DNA from: Cognatishimia activa | GTDB taxonomy: Bacteria > Pseudomonadota > Alphaproteobacteria > Rhodobacterales > Rhodobacteraceae | Length of the DNA stretch: 64,000 nt | Assembly (NCBI RefSeq): GCF_001458335.1 | Contig: NZ_CYTO01000004.1 | Location: 186,001 to 250,000 of the forward strand | Direction of reading: 5' to 3' | Shown here: in pieces, positions 36,346-44,752 of the stretch | Layout: each line of letters starts with the position of its first letter | Position numbering within the stretch: position 1 is the stretch's first letter | Position numbers and translations under genes: made by a program | The notes under the pieces: model-generated | What the model was told of the DNA's origin: nothing | The model's database searches: none | The model's input: the letters and a program-made list of their open reading frames with translations, nothing else

Positions 36346-37575
36346 TTACTTGTCAGAAACGCGCTTGTTGCGGGCTGCGAGCAGTTTGAGGCGCAGGGCG
36401 TTCAATTGGATGAAACCAGCGGCGTCTTTCTGGTCGTAAGCGCCAGCGTCTTCTTCGAAGGTCACGTGCGCTTCGGAGTAGAGGCTGTGGTCGGACCAGC
36501 GGCCCACACAGGTTGCGGAGCCTTTGTAGAGCTTCAGTTTCACGGTGCCGGTGACATTTTCTTGGGATTTGTCGATGGCCGCTTGCAGCATTTCACGCTC
36601 TGGCGAGTACCAGAAGCCATTGTAGATCAGTTCCGCGTAGCGTGGCATCAGGCTGTCTTTCAGGTGGCCTGCGCCGGAATCCAGTGTGATCTGTTCGATG
36701 CCGCGATGCGCTTCCAGAAGCACAGTGCCGCCTGGGGTTTCGTAGATGCCGCGGGACTTCATGCCGACGAAACGGTTTTCGACGAAGTCCAAACGGCCGA
36801 TGCCGTGTTTGCCGCCTAGTTCGTTCAGTTTGGTCAGGATGGTCGCCGGGCTCATTGCTTCGCCGTTGATGGCAACCGCGTCGCCTTTTTCGAAGGTGAC
36901 TTCGATGAATTCAGGTGTTTCAGGCGCGTCTTCTGGTGCGACGGTGCGTTGGTAGACGTAATCTGGTGCGTCAATTGCTGGGTCTTCCAGGACTTTGCCC
37001 TCAGAAGAGGTGTGCAGCAGGTTCGCGTCCACAGAGAATGGCGCTTCGCCGCGCTTGTCTTTGGCGATCGGGATTTGGTGCTGTTCAGCAAATTCCAGCA
37101 GTTTAGTCCGGCTGGACAGGTCCCATTCACGCCAAGGGGCGATCACTTTGATGTCGGGGTTCAACGCATAGGCTGCCAGCTCAAAACGCACCTGGTCGTT
37201 GCCTTTACCGGTTGCGCCGTGGGCGACGGCATCTGCACCGGTCGCTTCCGCGATCTCGATCAGACGCTTGGAAATCAACGGGCGCGCGATGGAGGTGCCC
37301 AGAAGGTACAGACCTTCGTAAACCGCATTGGCGCGGAACATTGGGAAGACGAAATCACGTACGAACTCTTCGCGGATGTCTTCGATATAGATGTTGTCTG
37401 GGTTGATGCCCAACAGCTCTGCCTTTTGGCGGGCTGGTTCCAGCTCTTCGCCCTGACCGAGGTCAGCGGTGAACGTGACGACTTCGCAACCGTATTCGGT
37501 TTGCAGCCATTTCAGGATGATGGAGGTATCAAGGCCACCGGAATAGGCCAAAACAACTTTCTTAGGCGCAGACAT
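36346..37575 (-). CDS. argG: Argininosuccinate synthase
   Basis: A 409-residue enzyme joining citrulline and aspartate with ATP in arginine synthesis. PP-loop '[11 protein letters not shown]' is at residues 10-20, with '[12 protein letters not shown]' near 118 and 'SSRTKLLEF'. Full length and free-standing, with its own terminator; argH is not in the window. The 145-bp gap upstream separates it from a divergent membrane-protein gene. Confidence 0.97.
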
Positions 37576-37720
37576 TTTATTTTCCTTCAGACGGGCAACG
37601 CTTTGGACAACAGCGGGGCGATAACGTGTTTTGAAGGCTGGGGCAAGCGGTGTGAGTATGCAGGCTTGAAAAGCACACAGAAAATGGTCACGACTGAGGT
37701 AAATTCGTTAGGAGAAATTT

Positions 37721-38461
37721 ATGTTGGGTTTGAGAGTTCTTTTGCATTCGGTGAAATTGGTTTTTCTAAATTGGCAGACCGCTTTGCGTATTTCGTCTCC
37801 GATTATCGCGGTCGGGCTTGCGTTTGCCGTGTTGTTTGGAAGCTCAGATGTCAGTTTTGACTTTGAGAACCCGCCTTCTGATTTCCCGTGGGGTGCCGTC
37901 ACCCTTTTCGGCATCGCATATGTCGTCGCGGGGCTTTGGGTCGCCGTCGCTTGGCATCGATATGTCTTGCTCGAGGAAGATAGCGGATCGATTGTCCCAA
38001 GATTCCGCGGTAATCGAATTGGCGCATATCTTCTGCAGGGTATCTTGCTTTCCCTGATTGTGATTTTGGCCGCAGTAGTGGTCGGCACGGTTTCTGGATT
38101 GATCTTCACCCTGGTCGGCGGAATGGCCGGTGTCTTTTTGACCACTCTTGTTGTCACCGGCGTTCTGCTGTGGATTTTCTACCGGCTGTCACCAACATTG
38201 CCTGCTGCCGCTTTGGGTGAAGCGCTTTCGATTGGCAATGCTTGGCGCAAAACCAGCGCTTACTCCGGTGCAATCTTGATCATGGTTATCGCAATGAGCG
38301 TGCTTTCATCGTTGTTTGGTTCTATTGTGGAATCCTTTGCCGGCGTATCGAGCCTTATCTACGTGTTGCTTAGCGTTGTTCAAACTTGGGTGAGTTTGAT
38401 GGTTGGCATCAGTGTCCTGACCACGATCTACGGGATTGCGGTCGAATACCGCGAGCTCTGA
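37721..38461 (+). CDS. Polytopic membrane protein of unknown function
   Basis: A 246-residue protein with about six hydrophobic helices: near 20-40, 60-78, 105-130, 132-152, 180-200 and 215-235. The segment between helices ('VAWHRYVLLEE', residues about 80-90) recurs in a family of small Rhodobacterales membrane proteins of unknown role. It starts after a strong 'taggaga'. No transporter or enzyme motif is visible. Divergent from argG and upstream of ilvA, without clear operon linkage. Confidence 0.75.
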   Translation: MLGLRVLLHSVKLVFLNWQTALRISSPIIAVGLAFAVLFGSSDVSFDFENPPSDFPWGAVTLFGIAYVVAGLWVAVAWHRYVLLEEDSGSIVPRFRGNRIGAYLLQGILLSLIVILAAVVVGTVSGLIFTLVGGMAGVFLTTLVVTGVLLWIFYRLSPTLPAAALGEALSIGNAWRKTSAYSGAILIMVIAMSVLSSLFGSIVESFAGVSSLIYVLLSVVQTWVSLMVGISVLTTIYGIAVEYREL

Positions 38462-38531
38462 CCCAGTATTCATTGGTATTCTTCGCCCCAAAGGCTTGCT
38501 CTTCTTATGGGCTTCAGGCACCTAGGATCTC

Positions 38532-39770
38532 ATGACCGATTTCCGCACCCAAGCCCGCAGTGCCGAAGCCGCCATGCGCAGCGTTTTTGATGCCACGCCT
38601 CTGCAGCGGAATGCCCATTTGTCTCAACGCTACAAGGCCGAGATCTACCTCAAACGCGAGGACTTGACGCCTGTGCGTAGCTACAAGCTGCGCGGGGCGT
38701 TTAATGCCATGCGAAAGGTGCTGGACAAAGACCCGTCCCGTGACCTTTTTGTCTGCGCCTCTGCGGGAAACCATGCCCAAGGGGTTGCCTTTATGTGCAA
38801 TCATTTTGGTGTAAAAGGCGTGATCTTTATGCCGGTGACCACGCCGCAGCAGAAGATTTTCAAGACCGAAGTCTTTGGCGATGGCGCAATAGAAGTGCGT
38901 TTGGTCGGCGACTATTTTGATGACACCTTGGCGGCGGCGCAGGCGTTTTGCGCTGAAGCAAAAGGGACGTTTCTGCCGCCCTTTGACGATGAAGATGTGA
39001 TTGAAGGTCAGGCATCCGTTGCCGCTGAGATTCTGACGCAACTGGGTAAAGCTCCTGATCACATCGTTCTGCCTGTTGGCGGCGGAGGGCTGTCTTCGGG
39101 TATCAGCAGCTTTTTTGGTAACGAGGTCGACTATACTTTCGTCGAACCATCAGGCGGGCCCAGTTTGAAGGCGGCTTTGGACGCGGGCGAATTGGTGACC
39201 TTGGATGCGGTCGACAGCTTTGTGGATGGCGCAGCGGTGGCGCGGATTGGCGAGAAGAACTTTGCGCGCCTGAAGCATCACAGCGCGGATGAGGTGGTGC
39301 TGTCTCCTGAAGACCGTATTTGTGCGACGATGCTAGAGATTCTAAACGTCGAAGGCATCGTGTTGGAGCCAGCCGGTGCCTTGGCCGTCGATGCCCTGAC
39401 CGATGTTGCTGATGAGATCAAAGGAAAAACCGTGGTTTGTGTGACCTCTGGTGGCAATTTTGACTTTGAGCGCCTGCCTGAGGTCAAAGAACGTGCGCAG
39501 CGCTATTCCGGTGTGAAAAAGTATTTCATTCTGCGCCTCCCTCAACGTCCCGGCGCGCTTAAAGACTTCTTGGCTATGCTTGGTCCAGACGATGACATTG
39601 CGCGGTTTGAGTACCTCAAGAAATCCGCACGCAATTTCGGCTCTGTCTTGATTGGTATTGAGACCAATGACCCAAAGAACTTCGCCAAGCTCTTTGATCG
39701 GATCGAGGCCGCGGGGATGGGTTTCACCGACATTACCAATGATGAAACGCTTGCGCAGTTCTTGATTTAG
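38532..39770 (+). CDS. ilvA: Threonine ammonia-lyase (threonine deaminase)
   Basis: A 412-residue PLP enzyme making 2-oxobutyrate for isoleucine synthesis. PLP Lys is in 'VRSYKLRGAF' near residue 56, the Gly loop 'LPVGGGGLSSG' near 178-188 and 'CVTSGGNFD' near 302. A single C-terminal regulatory (ACT-like) domain of about 85 residues follows, the short IlvA type. It converges on the Hpt gene with a 6-bp gap. Confidence 0.93.
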   Translation: MTDFRTQARSAEAAMRSVFDATPLQRNAHLSQRYKAEIYLKREDLTPVRSYKLRGAFNAMRKVLDKDPSRDLFVCASAGNHAQGVAFMCNHFGVKGVIFMPVTTPQQKIFKTEVFGDGAIEVRLVGDYFDDTLAAAQAFCAEAKGTFLPPFDDEDVIEGQASVAAEILTQLGKAPDHIVLPVGGGGLSSGISSFFGNEVDYTFVEPSGGPSLKAALDAGELVTLDAVDSFVDGAAVARIGEKNFARLKHHSADEVVLSPEDRICATMLEILNVEGIVLEPAGALAVDALTDVADEIKGKTVVCVTSGGNFDFERLPEVKERAQRYSGVKKYFILRLPQRPGALKDFLAMLGPDDDIARFEYLKKSARNFGSVLIGIETNDPKNFAKLFDRIEAAGMGFTDITNDETLAQFLI

Positions 39771-39776
39771 AGCCGT

Positions 39777-40091
39777 TCAACTTTGGTCTTCTAGGAACTC
39801 TGCCACAAAAGCCTGCTTGGATTGGTAAAATGAACTGCGCACGGCGTCCAAATCCGCTTGCGCCCCTTCATTTAAGCTATGTTCTGCGATTTGACATGTT
39901 TTGGAAAAGGCCGCGAAGCCAACATTCGCGCCGCTCCCCTTTAAAAAATGCATGTCTGTTCCAGAGGCACCATCGTTTTGAATGCGCCCGAAGACCTCTT
40001 CAACCTCCTCGTAAAAAATGTCGACAATTTCAGCAAAACCTTCCGCGCCTAGGTCGTTGCGCAGCTGATTTATCTTTTGGTGATCAAGCAT
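39777..40091 (-). CDS. Histidine phosphotransfer (Hpt) domain protein
   Basis: A 104-residue single-domain Hpt protein. The phospho-acceptor motif is 'DMHFLKGSGANVGF' (His near residue 46, then LKGS). Such proteins relay phosphate between a hybrid kinase and a response regulator. A longer frame upstream exists, but the ATG at 40091 has 'aaagggg' 5 nt before it. It diverges, over 150 bp, from a receiver-phosphatase gene, so the two may form one signalling branch. No kinase is adjacent. Confidence 0.82.
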   Translation of the reverse strand: MLDHQKINQLRNDLGAEGFAEIVDIFYEEVEEVFGRIQNDGASGTDMHFLKGSGANVGFAAFSKTCQIAEHSLNEGAQADLDAVRSSFYQSKQAFVAEFLEDQS

Positions 40092-40241
40092 GACGGCCCC
40101 TTTAGTCTCATAATGAGTAGAGAATTTTAAGAAACGGTAATCACGGCCCTTAAAACCGAGTGGATTTTCTTCATGCGGATTTAATAGGCTTTGGGTGAAG
40201 CTGCGGCTCGCTGCGAACAGGAAGTCGTTTAGGGAGTCGTC

Positions 40242-41504
40242 GTGATCAGTGCTCAGCCAATTGTCGTCGATAGTGTACCGGCGTCTCGGGCCCTTCAACG
40301 GGTATTGCTGGTGGACGAAAGTCGATTGCAGAGACGTATTCTATCCGCGTCCCTGAACAGGGATGGATTCGAAGTGTTGGAGGCGGGCAGCGCGCAAGAA
40401 GCATTGGATATATGTCAGCGGGATATGCCCGATCTTGTTCTGTCTGATTGGGTTCTCTCTGATATGGAAGGCCCGGAATTCTGTCGGAACTTCCGAGATT
40501 TGCCATCACCACATTACTGCTATTTTGTTTTCCTGACGGCCAAGTCCGAAAAAGACAGTGTCGTGAAGGCGTTAGAGCAAGGTGCCGACGATTTTTTGCT
40601 TAAACCGGTTGATGCGCATGAGCTAAGAGCGCGCATGTCGGCGGCTGCGCGTATTCTGAAAATGCAGCGTGAAATCACAGATACTCTTTCAGAGCTTCAG
40701 ACGGTTCATGAATTGGTGAACAAGGACCTGCTGGCGGCGAAGCGGTTTCAAGAATCTTTGGTCAAGGAGAGGGTCGTAGAATTCCCAAAGGGGCGCGTTT
40801 CGATGTTGCTTGAGTCCAGTGGACATGTCGGCGGGGACTTGGTTGGCCACTATCGCATTGATCGAGATCGGATTGGTTTGTTTGCAATTGATGTGAGCGG
40901 ACATGGGATCAGCTCTGCGCTGATGACCGCGCGCCTTGCGGGATATTTGTCAGCAACGTCTCGGGAGCAAAATATTGCGCTGATCCCAGCAAACGGGGAA
41001 GGCTATGATGCGTTGCCACCTCATCAAGTGGTCGAACAGCTGAATAGCTTGTTTTTGGATGAAATAGAGACTGAACATTACTTCACGATGGTTCTTGCAG
41101 AGGTCGATCTTGAGAGCGGCAAGGTGCGTTTGGCGCAGGCAGGTCATCCTCACCCATTGGTGCAACGATCTTGTGGTGCGATTGAAAAGCATGGTGCTGG
41201 CGGGCTGCCCGTCGGTCTTGTGCCCGGGGCGGATTACGCGGAATTCGAGTTGACGCTTGGACCCGGCGATCGGCTGATCGTGCTCTCGGATGGGCCGATT
41301 GAATGTCCGGATGCCGAAGGCAATATGCTGGATGACGACGGGCTCAATCTGCTTTTGACAGAACTCGCGCAGGACCAAGGCGAGGACTTTCTAGAAGGGT
41401 TTTTGTGGCGCTTGCAGGAATTTGCTGGAGGTCGTCCGATCCCGGATGACGTGTCCGGAATTTTATTAGAGTTTCATGACCTCAGAAATGCGCCAAGTCG
41501 ATGA
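40242..41504 (+). CDS. Receiver domain-PP2C serine phosphatase (RsbU-like response regulator)
   Basis: A 420-residue two-domain regulator. An N-terminal receiver has 'VLLVDESRLQRR' and phospho-Asp69 in 'LVLSDW', with Lys in 'FLLKPVD'. A linker coiled coil (about 135-180) leads to a SpoIIE/PP2C domain with 'GGDLVGHY', 'IDVSGHGISSALM' and 'VLSDGPIEC' metal ligands. Such proteins dephosphorylate STAS anti-sigma antagonists in partner switching. The architecture matches RbaY of Rhodobacter capsulatus, but orthology is inferred. GTG start after 'gggag'. Its 3' end overlaps the Nudix gene by 23 bp. Confidence 0.87.
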   Translation: MISAQPIVVDSVPASRALQRVLLVDESRLQRRILSASLNRDGFEVLEAGSAQEALDICQRDMPDLVLSDWVLSDMEGPEFCRNFRDLPSPHYCYFVFLTAKSEKDSVVKALEQGADDFLLKPVDAHELRARMSAAARILKMQREITDTLSELQTVHELVNKDLLAAKRFQESLVKERVVEFPKGRVSMLLESSGHVGGDLVGHYRIDRDRIGLFAIDVSGHGISSALMTARLAGYLSATSREQNIALIPANGEGYDALPPHQVVEQLNSLFLDEIETEHYFTMVLAEVDLESGKVRLAQAGHPHPLVQRSCGAIEKHGAGGLPVGLVPGADYAEFELTLGPGDRLIVLSDGPIECPDAEGNMLDDDGLNLLLTELAQDQGEDFLEGFLWRLQEFAGGRPIPDDVSGILLEFHDLRNAPSR

Positions 41505-41931
41505 AGTGTCGGTCGCCGCTATTGGCGAGCATGTACCTTGCTTCTTCACGATGGAGCCAGACTGCAGTGTGACCGGGTTCGGTTGGATGGCCAAGTCGGC
41601 ACACTGGGCGTGCCAGGTAAATCGTGCAGAGCTTATCTGCGAACTTCTCGTACTCCGCCATATAGGCAAATCGGCGAAAAGCCCCTAGCCGACGGGGTTT
41701 TGAGATACGCCAGCCGGTTTCTTCTAGCACCTCGCGATGTAGTGCCGTGATTGGCGACTCGCCGGGGTCAATTCCGCCGCCGGGCAATTGCAGTTCCGGC
41801 TCTGGCAATTTGTCTGAGGCGTCTTGGCGCGTGACCAGTATTTTATCTCCGCGCAACAAGATCACATAAGCTCCGGGGCGGGGTTTATAGACCTGTCCTG
41901 TCTTCGGTGGGGTTCCAAACCGTCGGATCAT
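41482..41931 (-). CDS. Nudix hydrolase
   Basis: A 149-residue Nudix pyrophosphohydrolase. The Nudix box is intact: 'GGGIDPGESPITALH' followed by 'REVLEETGW', matching Gx5Ex7REUxEExGU. The substrate is not evident; flanking residues resemble ADP-ribose/mutT-like hydrolases acting on nucleotide sugars or oxidised nucleotides. It is convergent with the PP2C gene (23-bp 3' overlap) and divergent from hslO. Confidence 0.88.
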   Translation of the reverse strand: MIRRFGTPPKTGQVYKPRPGAYVILLRGDKILVTRQDASDKLPEPELQLPGGGIDPGESPITALHREVLEETGWRISKPRRLGAFRRFAYMAEYEKFADKLCTIYLARPVCRLGHPTEPGHTAVWLHREEARYMLANSGDRHFIDLAHF

Positions 41932-42021
41932 GCGTTACCAGCCCTTTTTGTTCATCTTGCCGCACCTATATAGCTGCGGTATGCCAAGGTAAGGCCCGTA
42001 AGGAAAGCCCAAGGAACTCCA

Positions 42022-43011
42022 ATGACTCTCGGAACCAAAATCGCCTGGGACGACACAGTGTTGCCGTTTCAGCTGGATAAATCTGACATTCGCGGACGCG
42101 TTGCGCGGCTGGATAACGTTTTGCACGGTATCCTAAAGCAACATGAATATCCGGAATCTGTTGAAGCTTTGGTGGCCGAGGTTGCGCTTTTGACTGCGCT
42201 GATCGGTCAAACCATCAGCCTGCGCTGGAAACTGTCTTTGCAGGTGCAAACCAATGGTCCAGTGCGCATGATTGCGTCAGACTATTATGCGCCGACCAAA
42301 GAAGGTGAGCCTGCGCGCATCCGTGCCTATGCGGGGTTTGATGAGGATCGGCTGACCGATGCAGCGCCATTTGAGCAGCTGGGGAATGGTTATTTCGCGG
42401 TTTTGATTGATCAGGGTGAGGGGACGCAGCCTTATCAAGGGATCGCTCCTTTGACAGGTGGCTCGCTGAGCGCAAGCGCTGAAGGGTATTTTGCGCAGTC
42501 AGAACAGCTGCCGACACGCTTTTCTCTGCGGTTCGGAAAGTCTTCCGAGCCGGGTGTCGCCGAACATTGGCGCGCGGGCGGCGTGATGCTTCAGCACATG
42601 CCAAAGGCGTCTCCGCTTGTCAGCGGTGAAGGTGGTTCTGGGGACAAAGGCCAGTTGACCGCAAGCGATCTGCTGGAAGATGACGAAGAAGAAAACTGGA
42701 ACCGCGCGAATATTCTGCTCGACACGGTCGAGGAGCTGGAACTGATTGGCCCAAGCGTGACCCCAAGCACTTTGCTTCTGCGCCTGTTCAATGAGGAAGA
42801 GCCGCGGGTTTACGATGCTCAGAAAGTGGCGTTTGGCTGCTCTTGCTCAGAAGACCGCGTGCGCCAATCGTTGTCGATTTATTCTGCCAAGGATATCGAG
42901 AAGATGACGACAGAAGATGGCTGGGTTACTGCGGACTGCCAGTTCTGTGGCTCGCATTTCCAGCTTGATCCAAAAACCGTTGGGTTCGACGCGGAGAAAC
43001 CTGCCGGATGA
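42022..43011 (+). CDS. hslO: Redox-regulated chaperone Hsp33
   Basis: A 329-residue holdase chaperone activated by oxidation. The C-terminal zinc switch is complete: 'CSC' near residue 273 and 'CQFC' near 309. When oxidised the Cys pairs form disulfides, zinc leaves and the protein unfolds its linker to bind clients. 'aaggaa' lies about 6 nt upstream. It overlaps the next Nudix gene by 4 bp, starting a three-gene run hslO-Nudix-cca. Confidence 0.95.
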   Translation: MTLGTKIAWDDTVLPFQLDKSDIRGRVARLDNVLHGILKQHEYPESVEALVAEVALLTALIGQTISLRWKLSLQVQTNGPVRMIASDYYAPTKEGEPARIRAYAGFDEDRLTDAAPFEQLGNGYFAVLIDQGEGTQPYQGIAPLTGGSLSASAEGYFAQSEQLPTRFSLRFGKSSEPGVAEHWRAGGVMLQHMPKASPLVSGEGGSGDKGQLTASDLLEDDEEENWNRANILLDTVEELELIGPSVTPSTLLLRLFNEEEPRVYDAQKVAFGCSCSEDRVRQSLSIYSAKDIEKMTTEDGWVTADCQFCGSHFQLDPKTVGFDAEKPAG

Positions 43012-43604
43012 CGGATGCGAAGGCGGCCCTGCTAAGTGCGATTGACCGCGACGGCGGGGCCTCTTCTGATTTTGATCTGAATCCCGATGTGGTGTTGCCG
43101 GAGGGGCGCAAATTGCGTCCAGCCGGGGTTTTGATCCCAGTTCAAATGATAGATGGACAGGCGCAGGTGATCCTCACCAAACGCAGTTCGCATTTGAAAC
43201 ATCACCCGGGCCAGATCGCTTTTCCTGGCGGCAAGCAGGACGAGGCGGACGCGGATGTCATTGCCGCTGCTTTACGTGAAGCGGATGAAGAGATTGGGCT
43301 CAAACCAACAAATGTCGAGGTGCTCGGGACGCTCGCCAGCCATGAAACGGTCACCAGCTTTTTAGTAACACCCGTTTTGGGCTTTGTTCGAGACGCTTTT
43401 GTTCACGAACCAGAGCCGGGAGAGGTCGAAGAGGTCTTTTCAGTCCCCCTTACGCACCTGATTGATCCGAACAATTTCCGTGTCGAAGGCCGTCGCTGGC
43501 GCGGGCAAAGGCGGCATTATTACACCGTGCCTTATGGGCCGTATTACATCTGGGGGGCCACCGCGCGCATGTTGCGTGGGTTGGCAGAACGGATGTCTTC
43601 ATGA
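43008..43604 (+). CDS. CoA pyrophosphatase-type Nudix hydrolase
   Basis: A 198-residue NudL/YeaB-type Nudix protein. 'TKRSSHLKHHPGQIAFPGGK' (the CoA-Nudix signature UPF0035) precedes the Nudix box 'AALREADEEIGL' near residues 84-95. It likely cleaves CoA or oxidised CoA to phosphopantetheine and ADP; a role in stress turnover is inference. 4-bp overlaps tie it to hslO and cca. Confidence 0.9.
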   Translation: MTDAKAALLSAIDRDGGASSDFDLNPDVVLPEGRKLRPAGVLIPVQMIDGQAQVILTKRSSHLKHHPGQIAFPGGKQDEADADVIAAALREADEEIGLKPTNVEVLGTLASHETVTSFLVTPVLGFVRDAFVHEPEPGEVEEVFSVPLTHLIDPNNFRVEGRRWRGQRRHYYTVPYGPYYIWGATARMLRGLAERMSS

Positions 43605-44752
43605 AAGTCACAGGGGATTGGCTCACACGGCAGACCACCCAAGACGTTTGCGCGATGCTTACCGGTGGTGGACACCAAGCTTTGCTTGTCGGGGGTTGCG
43701 TGCGTAATGCGCTGCTTGATGCGCCGGTGTCTGACATTGATATCTCGACAGATGCGCTGCCTGATCGGGTGATCGAGTTGGCTAAAGAGGTCGGTTTGAA
43801 AGCGATCCCAACCGGTAAGGAGCACGGGACAATTACTGTGATCGCTGGCGGTATTCCTCACGAGATCACCACATTTCGAAAAGACGTTGAAACTGATGGG
43901 CGTCGGGCCGTTGTGGCCTTCTCCGACTGCGTCGAAGATGATGCGCATCGCCGCGATTTCACAATGAACGCTCTCTACGTGAAACCGGATGGGACTTTGG
44001 TTGATCCGCTGGGTGGGCTTCAGGACCTTCATGCGCGCCGTTTCGTGTTTATTGATGATGCGGACATGCGCATTCGTGAGGACTATCTGCGGATCCTGCG
44101 CTTCTTCCGTTTTAACGCGTGGTATGGTGACCCAAGTGCCGGGCTGGATGCAGAGGCGTTGGCGGCCATTGCGGCGAATTCCGATGGAATAGAGTCTCTT
44201 TCTAAAGAGCGGGTCGGCACTGAAATGCTGAAATTGCTTTCTGCCTCTGATCCTGCGCCTGCTGTTGCCGCCATGCGGCAATCTGGGGCTTTGGCTCAGG
44301 TTCTGGAAGGTGCCGATGACAAGCCGCTTGCGCCCCTTGTGCATTTTGAAGCGGAAGCCGGTGTCGCGTCTGATCCAATACGACGCCTCGCTGCGCTGGG
44401 CGGGCAGGGGGTTGAGAAAGCGCTGCGCTTATCCAAGAAAGATGCGGCGCGGCTAGAGGTGTTGCGTGAGGAGACCGGAGCGATGACTCCGGTTGCCGAA
44501 ATTGCCTATCGACAAGGTGCCGACCTTGCGATCTCGGTGATCTTGCTTCGTTCGGCAATGTTCGAACAACCGCTCCCGCACGGATTTAGCGAAGAAATCG
44601 CAATGGGTGCGACGGCGATTTTCCCAATCAAAGCAGCGGACCTATTGGACCAGTTTCAAGGCCCAGAATTGGGCGCGAAACTCAAGGCGCTTGAGAGTGC
44701 GTGGATCAAATCAGGTTTCGCGCTGGATAAAGACACGCTCCTGGAAATGTGA
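43601..44752 (+). CDS. cca: CCA tRNA nucleotidyltransferase / poly(A) polymerase family protein
   Basis: A 383-residue class II nucleotidyltransferase. 'LLVGGCVRNALLD' with the metal-binding 'SDIDIST' lies near residues 28-50, 'RRDFTMNALYV' near 112 and 'EDYLRILRFFRF' near 160. In alphaproteobacteria with a single such gene it adds or repairs tRNA 3'-CCA; poly(A) polymerase activity cannot be excluded from sequence. Last gene of the hslO-Nudix-cca run. Confidence 0.9.
   Translation: MKVTGDWLTRQTTQDVCAMLTGGGHQALLVGGCVRNALLDAPVSDIDISTDALPDRVIELAKEVGLKAIPTGKEHGTITVIAGGIPHEITTFRKDVETDGRRAVVAFSDCVEDDAHRRDFTMNALYVKPDGTLVDPLGGLQDLHARRFVFIDDADMRIREDYLRILRFFRFNAWYGDPSAGLDAEALAAIAANSDGIESLSKERVGTEMLKLLSASDPAPAVAAMRQSGALAQVLEGADDKPLAPLVHFEAEAGVASDPIRRLAALGGQGVEKALRLSKKDAARLEVLREETGAMTPVAEIAYRQGADLAISVILLRSAMFEQPLPHGFSEEIAMGATAIFPIKAADLLDQFQGPELGAKLKALESAWIKSGFALDKDTLLEM

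Follow-up and report, generated by a model that had tools for sequence, protein, structure and literature searches.

In Rhodobacter capsulatus, the Rba partner switch, with the proteins RbaY, RbaV, and RbaW (rcc00181, rcc03323, and rcc03324, respectively), affects both the production of the gene transfer agent and survival in the stationary phase, and rbaY and rbaV mutants behave alike (PMC3999984). The accessible part of that report names no Hpt partner of RbaY, and the lone occurrence of "Hpt" in it is in the title of a reference. In 2019, an Hpt protein and a REC-SpoIIE protein of Dinoroseobacter shibae, Dshi_3484 and Dshi_3485, were described as possibly interacting, with rcc_00180/1 as their R. 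capsulatus counterpart (PMC6473078); in the accessible portion of that paper, the pair in these two species is put forward as a suggestion, without conservation or decay analysis. In the literature that we searched, which was mostly outside subscription journals, we found no test of an Hpt-RbaY pair. A related arrangement is described for Pseudomonas aeruginosa, where the stand-alone Hpt protein HptB is fed by several hybrid kinases and phosphorylates the receiver of HsbR; this PP2C protein has an antagonist of the STAS type under its control and is a phosphatase in its phosphorylated form (PMC6482189, in the part available to us).

The window analyzed here is the whole stretch of 64,000 nucleotides from Cognatishimia activa, i.e., C4:186001-250000 of the host genome. 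The features of the locus are as follows:

39777..40091, minus strand: stand-alone Hpt protein of 104 aa, with an ATG start at 40091 and the stop codon included; its Pfam Hpt match lies over the cut-off and its AlphaFold2 model has four helices.
39948..39950, minus strand: codon of the predicted phospho-accepting His48, in HFLKGSGANVGF, invariant in an eight-sequence alignment.
40092..40241, no strand: shared intergenic region of 150 bp between the two divergent start codons, read from the sequence.
40242..41504, plus strand: RbaY-type response regulator of 420 aa, REC plus PP2C (SpoIIE), with a GTG start and the stop codon included; Pfam PF00072 and PF07228.
40446..40448, plus strand: codon of the predicted phospho-accepting Asp69 of the receiver (LSDWV), invariant in alignment A2.

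The Hpt protein matches Pfam PF01627 with 28.3 bits, against a curated cut-off of 24.6, and its four-helix bundle bears a histidine within an HxxKG motif, as the alignment and the AlphaFold2 model (mean pLDDT 93.4) show. The His of the motif HFLKG is present in 85 of 87 non-redundant homologues that have RbaY at the same locus. By sequence, its best solved relative is LuxU (1y6d, E 1e-7); in a Foldseek search with the model, the top ranks are Hpt proteins, with HptB (7c1i) at rank 20, none of them with E <0.001. The start of the gene is most likely the ATG at 40091, because a longer ORF with a TTG start at 40298 would overlap the neighbouring gene and because the same Met opens all eight aligned homologues (which were trimmed at that Met).

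The REC-PP2C protein scores 87.8 bits against PF00072 and 139.2 bits against PF07228, and a Pfam scan gave no HATPase match in its 420 residues. Both catalytic centers are complete: the receiver has D25, E26, D69, T99, and K121, and the PP2C domain has its four metal aspartates. In homologues whose neighbouring Hpt has an intact His, the receiver Asp is kept in 132 of 133. The AlphaFold2 model (pLDDT 76.8) has a REC-helical linker-PP2C layout, which is also that of P. aeruginosa RssB (PDB 3eq2 and 3f7a), the best match in both structure and sequence; the closest solved structure, 3eq2, is 26% identical. The protein fits RbaY, with which it was compared by description, because of its domain architecture, because it is the sole SpoIIE match of a profile search of the host genome, and because that genome also has one overlapping rbaV-rbaW pair (STAS plus HATPase_c_2), on contig C8. 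The RssB pathway of P. aeruginosa serves the control of RpoS.

The initial annotation had described two divergent genes sharing one intergenic region, an RbaY architecture, and the lack of a kinase nearby, and every part of this description agrees with what we found. As for kinases, none of the 24 HisKA matches of the genome lies inside the window, the nearest being at C4:180139, and a regular-expression search found no kinase G box in the 40 stop-to-stop segments of at least 250 aa in the window. In D. shibae, the Hpt gene likewise stands beside the REC-SpoIIE gene (PMC6473078, accessible part), and in R. capsulatus the REC-PP2C gene likewise lies apart from the overlapping rbaV-rbaW pair (PMC3999984, accessible part). 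The HptB-HsbR-HsbA system resembles the present one in combining a stand-alone Hpt, a REC-PP2C protein, and a STAS antagonist (PMC6482189, accessible part). HsbR, however, carries a kinase/anti-sigma domain of its own, whereas here RbaW is a separate protein and rbaVW lie on another contig. Judged from the sequences, the system is very probably an Hpt-fed partner switch in which phosphatase and kinase are separate proteins. The pairing itself was already known from D. shibae; what is new is the evidence for coupling and for an input that was cut off repeatedly.

It should be mentioned that the 150-bp region was also searched for regulatory motifs together with its homologues. A conserved full TTAA-N7-TTAA site, which we take to be a CtrA-like motif, is unsupported, as it was seen in three of the 124 regions homologous to this one and in none of one shuffle. 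Among the common 7-mers with TTAAC/GTTAA in the 124 regions are CCGTTAA (27), CTTAACC (21), and CCTTAAC (20), which in one shuffle were counted 0, 5, and 4 times, respectively; these may possibly be half-sites of some regulator.

How widely is the pair conserved? A scan of named genomes gave eight loci, with a divergent Hpt gene at all seven of those from Rhodobacterales; the eighth, a Bacteroidales locus with 24% identity, has no Hpt at the locus. Among 196 genomes of the order, a SpoIIE match was found in 177 and an Hpt-profile match in 169 (both at E 0.001), and an RbaW match in 161. Where both positions are among the matches listed, Hpt and RbaY lie less than 2 kb apart in 132 of 135 genomes and are divergent in all 132; of the other three, G008 and G142 have the two genes 4 kb apart, and G117 has them on different contigs. 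The matches in G050 (L036, L172) are divergent as well. Fourteen further genomes have Hpt and no SpoIIE position among the matches listed, and 13 of these have RbaY divergent beside Hpt; the locus of the remaining one, G005, has no RbaY beside Hpt. In G008 (L084:2998-6173) and G142 (L085:3594-6783), which belong to one genus, two genes in line with Hpt stand between rbaY and Hpt; in L084 one encodes a GT2 glycosyltransferase and the other a DUF3131 protein, and rbaY is followed by a gene for a peptidoglycan-binding domain protein. This is a hint that the Rba switch may touch surface polysaccharide in that genus.

A co-occurrence check of the pair with the rbaV/rbaW homologues had been proposed at the outset, and in the 196 genomes the parts do largely go together, with Hpt mostly adjacent and divergent to rbaY; a lack of co-conservation, named in advance as a refutation, was not what we observed. 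With presence cut-offs of 1e-20 for SpoIIE, 1e-10 for Hpt, and 1e-3 for RbaW, picked after the lists had been seen, Hpt and RbaW are both present in 153 genomes and both absent from 33, with two having Hpt only and eight RbaW only (186/196 agree); RbaY and RbaW are both present in 160 and both absent from 31, with four having RbaY alone and one RbaW alone (191/196 agree). The Fisher p-values for these tables take no account of relatedness; the 35 RbaW-less genomes, however, are spread over 17 genera by a hand count, and therefore reflect several independent losses. The four SpoIIE-positive, RbaW-negative genomes are G086, G095, G127, and G141; the SpoIIE protein of G141 is ruled out as an RbaY (25.7% identity, 741 aa). 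Some of the genomes run against the coupling: G005 and G056, of one genus, have an Hpt match, with neither RbaY nor RbaW found, and eight of the 161 RbaW-positive genomes have no good Hpt match. One of these eight, G110, does have a divergent-sequence Hpt, in a four-gene cluster, and was scored Hpt-negative because its match is weak.

The G110 cluster (L250) holds Hpt, RbaY, RbaV, and RbaW within 2.9 kb and ties Hpt directly to the partner switch. Its Hpt scores 36.7 bits, its RbaY is 40% identical to the window protein, its STAS protein is 49% identical to the RbaV of the host genome, and its HATPase_c_2 protein resembles RbaW (27%). Here, Hpt is convergent with RbaY; in other words, the same four parts occur in another gene order. 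In the HptB pathway of Pseudomonas, the gene of the STAS antagonist stands beside the Hpt/REC-PP2C pair, an order that is present in L250 and absent from the host genome, whose three STAS matches all sit on contigs other than that of hpt-rbaY.

The surroundings of the pair are themselves stable. A block at 36346-44752 of the window consists of argG, ilvA, hpt, rbaY, a NUDIX gene, hsp33, a second NUDIX gene, and a pcnA-like gene, and it was found again in most of 20 annotated loci. One could therefore argue that adjacency and joint loss reflect nothing but a stable ilvA-argG-hsp33 neighbourhood, the synteny of the block at most of the loci looked at being in its favour. Against this, loss follows RbaW too, which is encoded on another contig here. 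Furthermore, where Hpt alone is lost, ilvA and rbaY stay adjacent (65-232 bp apart in 40 of 41 loci), and the receiver still decays. We regard this explanation as the least probable of those weighed here, as the co-occurrence and the phylogenetic test described below have already largely refuted it.

Loci that have lost Hpt amount to a natural experiment, which carries the most weight among the data presented here. A first set comprised six loci with RbaY in its usual position and no Hpt (G126, G113, G022, G194, G188, and G163). In all six, the receiver site is broken or missing and the PP2C residues are intact; an Hpt-profile search of the six whole genomes gave no match in four and weak matches in G022 (9.8e-4) and G188 (9e-5), and RbaW is kept in all six. 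The follow-up was made in g7, the genus with the most losses (including four of the first six), with 101 genomes, 96 of them having RbaY. In the combined set of 197 RbaY loci, one per genome, a receiver was called canonical by five active-site positions. The receiver is canonical at 122 of the 133 loci that have Hpt with its His, and at two (G481 and G460) of the 41 loci where ilvA has no Hpt gene next to it, being broken at the other 39; the four PP2C metal Asp are complete at 41/41. Where Hpt is present without its His, three of seven receivers are canonical; where RbaY is not beside ilvA, so that Hpt may be elsewhere, seven of 16 are, including that of G117. The canonical receivers of these two groups, like those of G481 and G460, count against the coupling. 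The receivers of G117, with Hpt on another contig, and of G008 and G142, with Hpt 4 kb away, are still canonical. Within g7 alone, the numbers are 33 of 36 with the Hpt His versus two of 39 with Hpt missing, or two of 35 without the four loci seen earlier.

That Hpt has gone from these loci, and was not overlooked, follows from the gap between ilvA and RbaY, which shrinks to 65-232 bp (with one exception, 1176 bp in G509) from no less than 468 bp at those 116 of the 133 Hpt-bearing loci where it was measurable; in 35 of the g7 genomes, the absence of Hpt was judged at the locus only. The commonest form of decay is the breakage of the Mg-binding acidic pair, found at 38 of 41 Hpt-less versus 5 of 133 Hpt-bearing loci, and the phospho-Asp itself is lost at just four of the 41. 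In g7, the median identity to the consensus falls with Hpt loss from 0.670 to 0.557 in REC, and it barely moves in PP2C (0.610 to 0.596). Several lineages have thus dropped the Hpt input and retained an intact PP2C phosphatase.

Because the loci are related, a Pagel-type test was run on trees built from the PP2C domain alone. Independence of the Hpt and receiver states was rejected with p 1.5e-8 (FastTree, 180 tips), 7.7e-9 (IQ-TREE, 180 tips), 5.7e-7 (g7 plus outgroup, 83 tips), and 1.2e-11 (173 tips, with His-less Hpts left out and conservative receiver changes accepted), of which the last three are meaningful in direction and rough size alone, because some rates lay at the upper bound of the optimizer. 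The 16 RbaY loci not beside ilvA, as well as G433 (dropped for length), stood outside the test. On the 180-tip IQ-TREE tree, by parsimony, Hpt changed state at least 12 times, or 19 times under a loss-only count, if His-less Hpts are counted as lost, and 10 or 14 times, respectively, if they are not. We give an even chance to the stronger statement that the input was lost many separate times, namely in parts of g7 and, outside that genus, in two further genomes, with decay of the receiver and a phosphatase that turned from kinase-gated to phosphorylation-independent.

The proposal of the initial annotation that Hpt could be the phosphodonor of RbaY gains support from these data: the pair stays together and the receiver usually decays where Hpt is lost, and Hpt is therefore very probably the input of RbaY. 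Hpt proteins can act both ways, as donor or as sink, and the co-occurrence, the decay, and the phylogeny speak for coupling and not for its direction. Hpt might accordingly be a phosphate sink, or a route of back-transfer, that empties RbaY. On the contrary, the loss of a sink alone would leave the receiver phosphorylated and its site under selection, yet the site has decayed at 39 of 41 loci, and we consider this role improbable. We therefore retain Hpt as a donor, and phosphotransfer from it to RbaY is very probable on the comparative evidence.

Alternatively, Hpt may serve mainly another response regulator, RbaY being a minor or accidental neighbour. Such a role would suit G005 and G056, which keep an Hpt match without RbaY, and also G138 (L101), the only congener of the window in the order sample, where Hpt keeps its His and the RbaY receiver is broken (LSAW for LSDW, with the phospho-accepting Asp changed to Ala), so that the relay may be weakening in the genus of the window too. 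In G005, the Hpt gene (L089:2925-3287) stands beside ilvA at a locus from which rbaY is missing, no RbaW match was found genome-wide, and the motif VHRLKACATTLG keeps the His and Lys and not the Gly. Against another regulator as the main target, Hpt and RbaY co-occur strongly and are syntenic, L250 has all four genes in one cluster, and the receiver decays along with Hpt; we hold this alternative to be still less probable than a sink. Altogether, 11 of the 133 genomes with an intact Hpt have a non-canonical receiver, which counts against the coupling, although in four of them the change is K to R only. Five genomes of genus g37 (L251, G060; L252, G154; L253, G179; L182, G058; L192, G173) have K to R in the receiver, one also with T to A, and the Hpt motif HF[LV]RSG; the two shifts could possibly be a matched change.

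We prefer, with a probability of about 0.82 for the whole chain, the reading in which Hpt is the dedicated, or the main, phosphodonor of the neighbouring RbaY. The sequences directly show the genes, their complete active sites, how widely they are conserved together, and the receiver's dependence on Hpt. The transfer and the way it runs, whether PP2C is switched on or off, and what follows at RbaV and RbaW are modeled on the genetics of R. capsulatus and on the HptB pathway of Pseudomonas, and the chain would run as follows: (i) one or more hybrid histidine kinases encoded elsewhere in the genome would phosphorylate His48 of Hpt; (ii) the phosphate would move on from Hpt to Asp69 in the receiver of RbaY; (iii) phospho-Asp69 would alter how active the PP2C domain is, most likely by turning it on; (iv) the active PP2C domain would dephosphorylate the STAS protein RbaV; and (v) free RbaV would bind the kinase/anti-sigma-like RbaW and so change its output. 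The sign in step (iii) is suggested because phosphorylated HsbR is the phosphatase form (PMC6482189) and because rbaY and rbaV mutants are alike (PMC3999984), both as given in the accessible parts of these papers.

As for step (i), no kinase co-varying with the Hpt-RbaY pair was found among the two candidates traced over the 196 genomes, L138 and L128. L138 (PAS-PAS-HATPase-REC, C8:20654) is present in 138 of 196 genomes at E 1e-40, and its pattern is unlike that of the pair, because it is present in several genomes without RbaY (G005, G010, G011, G032, G056, G105, G111, G127, which has a SpoIIE match and no RbaW, and G136) and absent from several with RbaY (e.g., G015, G019, G031, and G034). 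L128 (HAMP-HisKA-HATPase-REC) is present in just five of 196 genomes at E 1e-70. Among the other hybrid kinases of the host genome, L141 and L142 have their own Hpt or almost reach the Hpt cut-off, L131 adjoins the gene of a LuxR-type regulator, and L135 (PAS-HisKA-HATPase-REC) is presumably CckA-like and expected to occur universally. The genome also has a second stand-alone Hpt (L129:2223-2591, 45.7 bits), whose neighbours are a REC protein and a histidine kinase of the phosphonate-binding/PAS type that itself gives no REC match.

Outside the order, the parts are arranged differently. In a class sample of 240 genomes, a full-profile REC-PP2C match at E 1e-30 is present in 43, of which 40 lie outside the family, and 20 loci from 19 genomes were hand-picked from these matches. 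Many of the 20 lie, by eye, in chemotaxis-like operons, and L144 has rbaY-rbaV-rbaW in a row. No stand-alone Hpt was found in the 20 by profile (the ORF picker missed the REC-PP2C gene in L160). At four of the loci (L149, L152, L156, and L159), a hybrid kinase that ends in an Hpt domain of its own is encoded either adjacent to the REC-PP2C gene or one gene away. These four are among seven neighbouring kinases that were scanned; of the remaining three, two do not carry a C-terminal Hpt and one is cut by the end of the locus, and L154 and L157 fell outside the scan. Hpt-to-REC-PP2C wiring thus seems to be a recurrent theme, of which a stand-alone Hpt encoded divergently looks to be the version found in Rhodobacterales.

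With the Hpt protein, the next upstream component of the Rba switch can be named on strong evolutionary evidence, and the input signal can now be sought through the hybrid kinases that act on a single small protein. Phosphorelay rewiring has here a clean natural example, in which the input disappeared repeatedly and the output persisted; if the phosphatase has indeed become phosphorylation-independent in the lineages concerned, nature would have supplied them as constitutive Rba mutants.
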